This document shows, one piece after another, positions 31,543 through 37,786 of a DNA stretch of 64,000 nt. The stretch comes from Sphaerotilus natans (GTDB lineage: Bacteria; Pseudomonadota; Gammaproteobacteria; Burkholderiales; Burkholderiaceae_C): NCBI RefSeq assembly GCF_900156335.1, contig NZ_FTMZ01000015.1, positions 1-64,000 of the forward strand. The letters run 5' to 3'. Position numbers and translations under genes: made by a program. The notes below the pieces were generated by a model, which was not told where the DNA came from, made no database searches, and saw only the letters and a program-made list of their open reading frames with translations. How positions within the stretch are numbered: position 1 is the first letter of the stretch; the number at the start of each line of letters is the position of its first letter.

Positions 31543-31678
31543 ATTTTCGCTCACCTTGCGCCCCGGTACCCGGAGCTCCGATGGGTTGGACAACCTTCCG
31601 CGACACGGCTAGACCGGTTGGCGGATCGCGACCCGCCTTAGCTGTTGCCAGAGAAGGGGACGGGAAGGACCTACAGAG

Positions 31679-35176: not shown

Positions 35177-36718
35177 TCAGCCCTGGGCAGCCACCCGCTC
35201 GGCCTTGCTGTGGAGCTTGTTCAGCGCCGACAGATAGGCCTTGGCAGAGGCCACGACGATGTCGGGATCGGCGCCGACCCCATTGACGACGCGGCCGCCA
35301 TGTTGAAGCCGAATCGTGACTTCGCCCTGCGATTCGGTGCTGCCAGACGTGATGGCGTTCACGGAATACAGCAGCATTTCAGCGCCCGTCTCCAGCTTCG
35401 ACTCGATCGCCTTCAGCGTCGCGTCGACCGGACCGTTGCCCTGCGCCACCGCGCGGTGCTCGACCTGGCCAGCGGCGAAGGTCACCCGTGCGCCCGGACG
35501 CTCGCCGGTCTCGGAGTGCTGCGACAGCGACAGCAGGCGGTAGTGCTCGACCTCGGCGCTGACGCTCTCGTCGCCGACCAGCGCGATGATGTCCTCGTCG
35601 AAGATCTCGCTCTTGCGATCGGCCAGGTCCTTGAACTTGACGAAGGCGGCATTGAGCTCGGACTCGGACTCGAGCTCGACGCCCAGGTCCTGCAGGCGCT
35701 GCTTGAAGGCATTGCGGCCCGAGAGCTTGCCCAGCACGATCTTGTTGGCGCTCCAGCCCACGTCCTCGGCACGCATGATCTCGTAGGTGTCGCGCGCCTT
35801 GAGCACGCCGTCCTGGTGGATGCCCGAGGCGTGCGCAAAGGCGTTGGCGCCGACGACGGCCTTGTTCGGCTGCACCACGAAGCCGGTGGTCTGCGCCACC
35901 ATGCGCGAGGCTGGCACGATCTGCGAGGTATCGATGCCCAGGTCGAGGTTGAAGTAGTCGCGGCGGGTCTTGACCGCCATCACCACCTCTTCGAGCGAGC
36001 AGTTGCCGGCACGCTCGCCCAGGCCGTTGATGGTGCATTCCACCTGGCGCGCGCCGCCGATCTTCACGCCGGCGAGCGAGTTGGCCACCGCCATCCCCAG
36101 GTCGTTGTGGCAGTGCACCGACCAGATCGCCTTGTCGGAGTTGGGAATCTTCTCGCGCAGCGTGCGGATGAAGTTGCCGTAGAGCTCGGGGATCGCATAG
36201 CCGACGGTGTCGGGAATGTTCAGCGTCGTGGCGCCCTCGTCGATCACGGCCTCGAGCACGCGGCAGAGGAAGTCGACGTCCGAGCGGTAGCCGTCCTCGG
36301 GCGAGAACTCGATGTCGGCGCACAGGTTGCGTGCGAAGCGCACCGACAGCCGCGCCTGCTCGAGCACCTGCTCGGGCGTCATGCGCAGCTTCTTCTCCAT
36401 GTGCAGCGCGCTGGTGGCGATGAAGGTGTGGATGCGGGCGCGGTTGGCGCCGCGCAGCGCCTCGGCCGCACGCGAGATGTCGCGGTCGTTGGCGCGGGCC
36501 AGCGAGCAGACGGTGGAATCCTTGATGGCGTCGGCGATGGCCTTGACCGCCTCGAAGTCGCCGTTCGACGACGCGGCGAAACCGGCCTCGATGACATCGA
36601 CCTTCAGGCGCTCGAGCTGGCGCGCGATGCGCAGCTTCTCGTCGCGCGTCATCGAGGCGCCGGGCGACTGCTCGCCGTCGCGCAAGGTGGTGTCGAAAAT
36701 GATCAGCTTGTCACTCAT
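35177..36718 (-). CDS. leuA: 2-isopropylmalate synthase
   Basis: LeuA condenses 2-oxoisovalerate with acetyl-CoA, the committed step to leucine, and is inhibited by leucine. The 513-residue enzyme opens with [15 protein letters not shown] (7-21), has the metal-binding [12 protein letters not shown] and GNCSLEEV segments and a C-terminal leucine-binding regulatory domain (from about 390). ATG 36718 has GGAG about 7 nt upstream. It lies behind a leucine leader peptide and terminator (36782-36924), so transcription is probably attenuated by leucyl-tRNA supply. The gene follows pssA. Confidence 0.95.
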
Positions 36719-36781
36719 GGTCGTCTCCAAGGAGGGTGGGTACACCGACGCTGCTCTGGGATCCCGGCGGAACAACCGGGC

Positions 36782-36822
36782 GACAAAAGAGAACGGCCCG
36801 CAGCGTGATGCCATGCGGGCCG
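36782..36822 (-). terminator. leu attenuator: intrinsic terminator before leuA
   Basis: On the minus strand CGGCCCGCA (36814-36822) pairs with TGCGGGCCG (36794-36802) in a perfect 9-bp stem with an 11-nt loop, followed by TTCTCTTTTGTC. It begins 42 bp after the leuL stop and ends about 75 bp before leuA. CGGGC near the end of leuL can pair with GCCCG of the 5' arm, a possible antiterminator. A small hairpin (GTACA/TGTAC, 36839-36852) lies between. Confidence 0.75.
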
Positions 36823-36864
36823 TCGATCCAGAAAGGGGGTACAGGAATGTACAGGTGTGACTGG

Positions 36865-36924
36865 TCAGCGCGCCCGGGGCACTTCGATTAGAAGCAGCAG
36901 TAGGGTGTGAACGCCGAAAGTCAT
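36865..36924 (-). CDS. leuL: leu operon leader peptide
   Basis: A 19-codon frame, [19 protein letters not shown], lies between pssA and leuA on the same strand. It has five consecutive leucine codons, CTA CTG CTG CTT CTA. CTA and CTT are strongly avoided elsewhere in this GC-rich sequence, so the run is well suited to ribosome stalling when leucyl-tRNA is low. A strong terminator hairpin follows and then leuA. There is no Shine-Dalgarno; the -10-like TATAGT ends 7 nt before ATG, so the message may be leaderless. Ribosome stalling at the Leu run should prevent the terminator from forming, as in classical leu attenuation. Confidence 0.85.
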
Positions 36925-36930
36925 GCGTCG

Positions 36931-36936
36931 ACTATA
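36931..36936 (-). promoter_or_regulatory. Candidate -10 box for leuL-leuA
   Basis: TATAGT (minus strand) lies between the pssA stop and the leuL ATG, ending 7 nt before ATG. Transcription would begin at or beside the ATG. The -35 region falls inside pssA and is not consensus. Confidence 0.4.
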
Positions 36937-36943
36937 GCACGCC

Positions 36944-37786
36944 TCAGCGATGCAGGCCCCGCTCGTCAGGCTCGTCGGTCGAGGTGGCGATGACACTGAC
37001 CGGGCGGCCGCGCGACTTGCGCACCCCATACACCACATAGCCCGACAGGCCATAGACGACAAAGACGCCGAACAGCACCAGCGGCGGGTGGTAGGTGATC
37101 ACCGCGATGCCCAGCGCGATCGCCACGATCACGATGAAGGGCACGGTGCGCTTGAAGTTGACGTCCTTGAAGCTGTAGAAGGGCACGTTGGTGACCATCG
37201 TCAGCCCGGCGTAGAGCGTGGTGGCGAAGGCCAGCCAGGTCAGCCACTCGATGTCGCGCACGCCCTTGAAGCCCAGATCGTCCATCACCCAGATCAGGCC
37301 GGTGACCAGCGCGGCAGCAGCCGGGCTCGGCAGCCCCTGGAAATAGCGCTTGTCGACCACGCCGATGTTGGTGTTGAAGCGCGCCAGGCGCAGCGCAGCG
37401 CCCGAGCAGTAGACAAAGGCGGCAATCCAGCCGAGCTTGCCCATGCCCTTGAGCGCCCACTCGTACATGATCAGCGCCGGCGCCGCACCGAAGGAGACCA
37501 TGTCGGACAGGCTGTCCATCTGCTCGCCGAAGGCGCTCTGGGTGTTGGTCATGCGGGCCACGCGACCATCCAGGCTGTCGAGCACCATGGCGCAGAAGAC
37601 GCCGATCGCGGCCTGCTCGAAGCGGCCGTTCATTGCCATCACGATCGCGTAGAAGCCGCCGAACAGCGCCGCCAGCGTGAACAGGTTCGGCAGAATGTAG
37701 ATGCCCTTGCGGCGCGGGCGCTGCAGCACCGGCTCATCCGGCTCGTCGTCGGGTTCGGCCCGCTCGGGGGAGAGGTTTTGGTTCAT
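36944..37786 (-). CDS. pssA: CDP-diacylglycerol-serine O-phosphatidyltransferase
   Basis: An inner-membrane CDP-alcohol phosphatidyltransferase that makes phosphatidylserine, precursor of phosphatidylethanolamine. In 280 residues the family motif is complete: D70xxD73G74xxA77R78, then G87, D91 and D95 (in LDSLDGRVARMTNTQSAFGE). Several membrane helices follow (for example FKRTVPFIVIVAIALGIAVI). Its place between the ilv genes and leuA is a conserved Burkholderiales arrangement with no obvious metabolic logic. An acidic N-terminal extension (about 20 residues) is present. Confidence 0.92.
   Translation of the reverse strand: MNQNLSPERAEPDDEPDEPVLQRPRRKGIYILPNLFTLAALFGGFYAIVMAMNGRFEQAAIGVFCAMVLDSLDGRVARMTNTQSAFGEQMDSLSDMVSFGAAPALIMYEWALKGMGKLGWIAAFVYCSGAALRLARFNTNIGVVDKRYFQGLPSPAAAALVTGLIWVMDDLGFKGVRDIEWLTWLAFATTLYAGLTMVTNVPFYSFKDVNFKRTVPFIVIVAIALGIAVITYHPPLVLFGVFVVYGLSGYVVYGVRKSRGRPVSVIATSTDEPDERGLHR

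Follow-up and report, generated by a model that had tools for sequence, protein, structure and literature searches.

A leucine-rich frame between pssA and leuA

Between pssA and leuA of Sphaerotilus natans lies a frame of 19 codons, five of them a run of leucine codons, followed by a hairpin with a T-rich tail. Does this short stretch sense leucine and control leuA, and, if so, how does a ribosome reach a frame whose start codon stands immediately behind a promoter? In the window, which is the whole 64,000-nucleotide stretch of DNA analysed, the element (leuL) occupies the space between the stop codon of pssA (36944) and the ATG of leuA (36718) on the minus strand. Its parts and neighbours are the following.

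36944..37786, minus strand: pssA, CDP-diacylglycerol--serine O-phosphatidyltransferase, upstream neighbour (TIGR00473, 112.7 bits, cut-off 107)
36939-36931, minus strand: extended -10 promoter element TGCTATAGT (hexamer TATAGT, 36936-36931), without a conserved -35
36930-36925, minus strand: CGACGC, gap between the -10 hexamer and the leuL ATG
36865..36924, minus strand: leuL, 19-codon leader peptide (ATG at 36924, TGA at 36867-36865), starting at the predicted transcription start
36903-36889, minus strand: putative control codons CTA CTG CTG CTT CTA, with the CTA bias of the leaders
36861..36876, minus strand: segment 2, predicted 5' arm of the antiterminator, overlapping the leuL stop codon, CGGGCGCGCUGACCAG (pairing with segment 3 under a ribosome on the Leu codons; swap tests)
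36839..36852, minus strand: small spacer hairpin GUACA-UUCC-UGUAC (class A leaders compared)
36816..36831, minus strand: segment 3, predicted 3' arm of the antiterminator, whose GCCCG core is shared with the 5' arm of the terminator
36783..36824, minus strand: intrinsic terminator, with its hairpin at 36824-36792 (11 + 2 pairs, -22.7 kcal/mol) and the tail CTCTTTTGT at 36791-36783
36728-36725, minus strand: GGAG, Shine-Dalgarno-like site of leuA
35177..36718, minus strand: leuA, 2-isopropylmalate synthase, the putatively regulated gene (NCBIfam NF002087, 899.7 bits, cut-off 729)

The start of leuA at 36718 was set by homology, the mechanical open reading frame opening earlier, at 36814. Among the neighbours, NCBIfam identifies ilvC as ketol-acid reductoisomerase, and the gene between pssA and ilvC is methyltransferase-like, with matches under all cut-offs shown. 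By eye, no leader was seen before the ilvB gene of the window. A simple promoter and terminator scan, whose rules need a -35 hexamer and at least five T in eight bases near the stem, listed neither the leuL promoter nor the leuL terminator. The leader as a whole folds at -50.6 kcal/mol (z = -4.1), a stability equalled by none of 200 shuffles. Rfam returned no known RNA family or riboswitch at the site, where positions 36700-37000 gave two unrelated sub-threshold matches; as no covariance model matches it, the element is not filed under any Rfam family. Rfam's gathering threshold is passed once in the window, by a sucA RNA motif (RF01070) at 31548-31631 on the minus strand, which scores 83.4 bits where 40 are required.

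Conservation of the arrangement in relatives

Relatives were taken from a LeuA scan of public genomes, in which the best 80 of 584 confirmed stretches were retained, and from 13 genomes of the window's genus. This search yielded 86 loci with the end of pssA and leuA, one of which duplicates the window, leaving 85 distinct loci. An extended -10 element followed 6-10 nt later by a Leu-rich frame was found in 81 of these 85. The strict combination of -10, ATG and Leu run was present in 77 and appeared in none of 50 rounds of dinucleotide shuffles, which confirms, on the minus strand, the 19-codon frame and its CTA CTG CTG CTT CTA run described in an earlier note on this DNA. Under these criteria the element is missing from four loci (L016, L048, L071 and L074), which are close relatives; apart from them, the Leu run and the hairpin, which that note had proposed to look for in close relatives, are both retained. 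In L071, a terminator-like hairpin and a Leu-containing frame remain, and by eye the locus looks like a case of decay.

The position behind pssA, initially judged unusual, is in fact the ordinary gene order: pssA lies directly upstream in the 85 distinct loci, with the leader in between in 81. Downstream, leuA directly follows in 64 of the 85 loci and a second gene, from the 2-isopropylmalate synthase superfamily, intervenes in 21 (e.g. L005, L028, L099 and L102). In L005, the one example scanned, this intervening gene is a second, yeast-type 2-isopropylmalate synthase (NCBIfam NF002991, 830.5 bits); an assignment as citramalate synthase was rejected, the TIGR00977 score being 76.4 bits for a cut-off of 450. 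Three loci with ample flank (L060, L062 and L068) have no pssA match and yet carry the leader before leuA (seen by eye in L060), which indicates that the element goes with leuA.

The leaders fall into two sequence classes, A (32 leaders, including that of the window) and B (49 leaders). The spacer hairpin at 36839-36852 belongs to the sub-clade of the window and was found in four of the 32 class A leaders (L001, L083, L084 and L085); in L085 it reads GUACG/CGUAC, a compensatory change from A-U to G-C.

Leucine codons and leader peptide

CTA accounts for 186 of the 367 leucine codons of the leaders (51%) and for 26 of 5205 (0.5%) in leuA and pssA of the same 81 loci, and at least one CTA occurs in each of the 81 leaders. 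No other single observation speaks as strongly for a leucine sensor as this enrichment. Both CTA and CTT had been described as rare: CTA truly is, whereas CTT is only moderately so, with 5.5% of the leucine codons in leuA and pssA and 7.4% in the leaders.

The remainder of the peptide behaves differently. When the relatives' leaders were compared by eye, the peptide sequence appeared unconserved save for the Leu run and an arginine-rich end. The word CGGG near the leuL stop codon stands in codon phase 2 in 39 leaders, in phase 0 in 22, in both in 8 and in phase 1 in one, and is absent from 11; its retention across two reading phases points to an RNA element rather than to the peptide. These observations bear on the idea that the terminated leader RNA or the peptide acts in trans, besides or instead of attenuation, in the manner of rnTrpL and peTrpL of Sinorhizobium meliloti. 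A terminated leaderless leader would indeed be a small mRNA, like the trpL of S. meliloti in the excerpts of its description (PMC7298713), but the poorly conserved peptide and the varying codon phases of its CGGG argue against such a function, which we consider unlikely.

Promoter and predicted leaderless start

Across the 81 loci, the leuL promoters share the extended -10 consensus TGnTAnAnT, and sequences anchored on the -10 show no conservation or information at the -35 position. The start codon, ATG in 79 leaders and GTG in two, follows the hexamer after 6 nt in 39 leaders, 7 in 27, 8 in 8, 9 in 6 and 10 in one; in the window, the A of the ATG is the seventh base past the hexamer. Since transcription canonically starts 7 nt after the -10 hexamer, the first base of the start codon would be base 1 or 2 of the RNA in 66 of the 81 leaders. 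On the strength of this spacing, the predicted 5' end of the leuL RNA is the AUG itself or lies no more than a few bases from it. A GGAG, GAGG or AGGA word before the start was found in none of the 81 leuL frames, against 69 of the 81 leuA genes. The relatives, by both the 6-10 nt spacing and the missing word, lend support to the probable leaderless start suggested from the single sequence. The base right after the start codon is an A in 68 of the 81 leuL frames.

Conventional translation of leuL, from a transcript arriving from upstream or through coupling to pssA, would make the frame not leaderless at all. The spacing does leave room for a short 5' end, of roughly 4 nt at most, in those 15 loci whose gap is 8-10 nt. 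However, this explanation has to contend with the lack of any such word in all 81 leaders, with the gap of 6-7 nt in most of them, and with the recurrence of the same arrangement in other families of the order (see below). Excerpts of a study on Burkholderia cenocepacia describe, in addition, a TA-rich promoter motif directly upstream of leaderless genes (PMC4603805), and we regard conventional translation as quite improbable.

Terminator and alternative pairing

An intrinsic terminator is present in all 81 leaders, with energies from -15.0 to -25.1 kcal/mol (median -20.5). The hairpin and T-rich tail of the window are as first reported, except that the stem, given as 9 bp, is slightly longer, with 11 + 2 pairs. 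In the alignment of the class B stem (A2, 47 of the 49 leaders, L063 and L077 left out), two-sided changes occur at 2 of 10 pairs, one being A-U in 27 leaders and C-G in 20, the other G-C in 38 and A-U in 9. The class A stem (A1, 29 of the 32 leaders, L021, L069 and L084 left out) shows a two-sided change at 1 of 8 pairs, in a single sequence.

The fate of the GCCCG core was followed in folding models. Left untranslated, 80 of the 81 leaders adopt the terminator fold. With a ribosome placed at the stop codon, the core is in the terminator with a value above 0.5 in 81 of 81 leaders; under the same placement, but before the 3' arm of the terminator is made, it is in an upstream pairing above 0.5 in 7 of 81. 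In the window, segment 2 is hidden by a ribosome that has reached the stop codon, which leaves the terminator as the principal fold. When the ribosome is instead put on Leu codon 5 and the RNA ends before the 3' arm of the terminator, segments 2 and 3 pair as CGGGC.CG.UGACCAG / CUGG.UCG.CGGCCCG at -22.8 kcal/mol.

Sequence swaps between leaders addressed the same pairing. In class A (31 leaders), matched segments 2 and 3 beat permuted ones, with 0 of 2000 permutations reaching them both with and without the core; after thinning to 19 leaders, the counts were 0 of 5000 with the core, 1 of 5000 without it and 1489 of 5000 for a spacer control. As the leaders compared are related sequences, the p-values given here and below are optimistic and overstate the evidence. 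Because their antiterminator core does not vary, the class B leaders gave no signal when it was included (1335 of 2000); leaving it out produced a weak trend (71 of 2000). Covariation of the class B core was also sought as such, and none was measurable in a core that never varies.

Ribosome placements were then compared in all leaders with footprints of 12 and 15 nt. With the ribosome on the first or the middle Leu codon, the median probability that the core pairs with segment 2 was 0.98-1.00 in class A and class B alike, against 0.58-0.66 for controls whose upstream sequence had been shuffled. Once the ribosome was moved to the last Leu codon, class B lost this effect under the 15-nt footprint (Wilcoxon p = 0.52, with values above 0.5 in 33 of 49 real leaders and in 47 of the 49 controls). 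Counting the leaders that exceed 0.5 is in most settings a poor way to tell real ones from controls, because the core finds partners in shuffled upstream sequence too. With the ribosome on the last CTA, the antiterminator probability exceeded 0.5 in 57 of 81 leaders and in 63 of 81 controls, so that the control was not beaten in count. What the placements consistently predict, then, is a ribosome that stalls early in the Leu run. Taken in the models, an exclusive switch between antiterminator and terminator is supported for the window and class A by these pairings, and for class B by complementarity and folding.

Proposed mechanism

The leuL locus has two hallmarks of an attenuator, namely a short frame with successive codons for the amino acid that the downstream gene helps to make, and an intrinsic terminator ahead of that gene. 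Computation shows the parts and how well they are kept, the bias in codon use, the terminator and, best in the window's class, the alternative pairing; where transcription starts, that ribosomes stall and that leuL responds to leucine are inferred. We hold it to be highly probable that leuA is under leucine-dependent transcription attenuation, mediated by a ribosome on a leaderless leader frame. The reading as a leucine attenuator had been put forward in the earlier note; with the Leu-rich frame, the CTA bias, the terminator in 81 of 81 leaders and the class A pairing in relatives behind it, it is very probably right.

In the proposed sequence of events, transcription would begin on the leuL AUG or a few bases away from it, and a ribosome would load on this 5' AUG without a Shine-Dalgarno site. 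Scarcity of charged Leu-tRNA, above all of the reader of the rare CUA, would cause stalling on CUA CUG CUG CUU CUA. The stalled ribosome would leave segment 2 (CGGGC..UGACCAG, at the leuL stop) free to pair with segment 3 (CUGG..GCCCG), and this pairing would block the terminator, so that RNA polymerase could enter leuA. When leucine is plentiful, the ribosome would reach the leuL stop and mask segment 2, and the GCCCG/CGGGC terminator would form. The untranslated leader is predicted to adopt the terminator as well, so transcripts running in from pssA would end there; in the folding model, the terminator may therefore insulate leuA from pssA read-through.

That the hairpin is simply a constitutive terminator of an ilv-pssA operon, with leuA unregulated and the short frame incidental, would agree with its place directly behind pssA in 81 of the 85 distinct loci and with the terminator fold of nearly all untranslated leaders, but is very improbable, since the promoter precedes the terminator instead of following it, the Leu run with its CTA in 81 of 81 leaders and the class A antiterminator covariation would have no role, and three loci carry the leader without pssA upstream.

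If the attenuator reading is correct, a large group of bacteria, most of them environmental, govern leuA through a leucine-sensing leader that does without a ribosome-binding site. The locus would be a compact natural system in which to study how leaderless initiation is coupled with transcription attenuation, and whether such a leader can shield the gene behind it from read-through. For genome annotation, leuL is a short modelled RNA element, and frames of about 20 codons are easily overlooked.

Distribution in the family and the order

A model built on the class B leaders found the element in 147 of 200 genomes of the window's family, covering 112 of 141 genera; in five of the 147 (G042, G106, G112, G127 and G206), it matches the 3' part with the terminator only. 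The window, of class A, is not matched by it. The class A model matched 14 of 300 genomes of the order, of which seven belong to the window's family, three to family f10 and four, with weak matches (three of them partial), to other families. The two f10 loci that were read (L123 and L125) each have both the leaderless frame and a hairpin that runs into a T-rich tail.

Beyond the models, 40 leuA upstream regions were sampled across the order, 38 of which were usable (L140 and L153 were not). A Leu-rich frame 6-9 nt past a -10-like hexamer was found in 26 of the 38, from 23 of 35 families, against a mean of 0.32 and a maximum of 2 in shuffles. Twelve regions have no such frame by the 6-9 nt rule. 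Among these, L139 has one at 10 nt by eye, and the L129 stretch ends short of that genome's model match, so some of the twelve are misses of the rule or of the region; in L130, from family f10, no frame was found before leuA.

Two of the 26 frames, both from f32, are followed by a hairpin with a T-rich tail. No convincing intrinsic terminator was found for the other 24, a candidate occurring in seven of them with at best -13.1 kcal/mol and a poor tail. Their leucine codons are mostly CTG (106 of 172), with 10 CTA. The frame of these 24 leaders (within L135-L168) usually ends in LLLRPAR or a variant thereof, usually followed by a C-rich stretch. Sequestration of the leuA Shine-Dalgarno site by the stretch after the stop codon was tested and not supported, matched pairs doing no better than permuted ones (830 of 5000 and 2561 of 5000) in a set where the leuA start was probably wrongly chosen in L135 and no start codon stood at the place used in L157. 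Our guess is that the terminator-free leaders use Rho.

A tentative history can be drawn from this distribution, although we doubt it more than we believe it. Leaderless leuL may be ancestral to the betaproteobacterial order and its output device may have been swapped, an intrinsic terminator serving the window's family as well as the loci read from f10 and f32, while elsewhere the LLLRPAR-like end and the C-rich stretch may steer Rho; only transcripts from the leuL promoter would then be translated and read into leuA, which would insulate leuA from ilv-pssA. What is new here is the depth of conservation, with the frame in 26 of 38 order-level leuA upstream regions, and the finding that 24 of these 26 have no convincing intrinsic terminator.

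Comparison with known systems

A close known parallel in design is the attenuator of the enterobacterial leu operon (Rfam family Leu_leader). Both have a run of Leu codons in the leader, a mutually exclusive antiterminator and intrinsic terminator, and leuA downstream. In contrast, leuL has no Rfam match, is leaderless by its geometry and lies within an ilv-pssA-leuA gene order. It is also shorter, with 19 codons against 28 in the Escherichia coli leu operon according to excerpts of a review (PMC6123439), which also place leader peptides and terminators ahead of the genes for branched-chain amino acids in a variety of Gram-negative species.

No leuL of Betaproteobacteria was found among the literature matches listed, although an earlier prediction is possible (Vitreschak 2004, Lopatovskaya 2010), and no match combined the terms leaderless, leader peptide, leucine and betaproteobacteria. 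Excerpts of PMC2965389, PMC4833913 and PMC3766115 hold no mention of leuA.

Leaderless leaders of this type are documented elsewhere. In Streptomyces lividans, excerpts of PMC8079986 describe leaderless LeuL1 before leuA and LeuL2 before leuS. They share with our element a short leaderless peptide with a Leu run, and LeuL2 has a hairpin and a uridine stretch. S. lividans is, however, a member of the Actinobacteria, its LeuL1 appears in those excerpts without a typical terminator, and its peptides differ from leuL by eye. In the trpL/rnTrpL leader of S. meliloti, the transcript begins at the ATG of the leader peptide, which makes it a leaderless attenuator leader too; it differs in responding to tryptophan, in belonging to an alphaproteobacterium and in the trans-acting products reported for it, as far as the excerpts go (PMC7298713).

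Other leucine leaders share the codon run. In partial texts on Campylobacter jejuni (PMC3847290, PMC11955535), LeuL is a short frame with five rare Leu codons before leuABCD, and its RNA ends soon after the stop codon. Unlike the frame studied here, it has 28 residues, its relatives were predicted partly by a ribosome binding site, and the label leaderless was not found in those texts. The actinobacterial LEU element likewise places a leader peptide with a Leu run before leuA, but in the excerpts of its description it works through a pseudoknot in which the Leu run pairs with the leuA Shine-Dalgarno site (PMC1262725), where our locus has an intrinsic terminator instead. As leaderless leuL in S. 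lividans, trpL in S. meliloti and LeuL in Campylobacter have been reported, the kind is already known: leuL is a well-conserved example of it, set within a broader and less explained pattern in the order.
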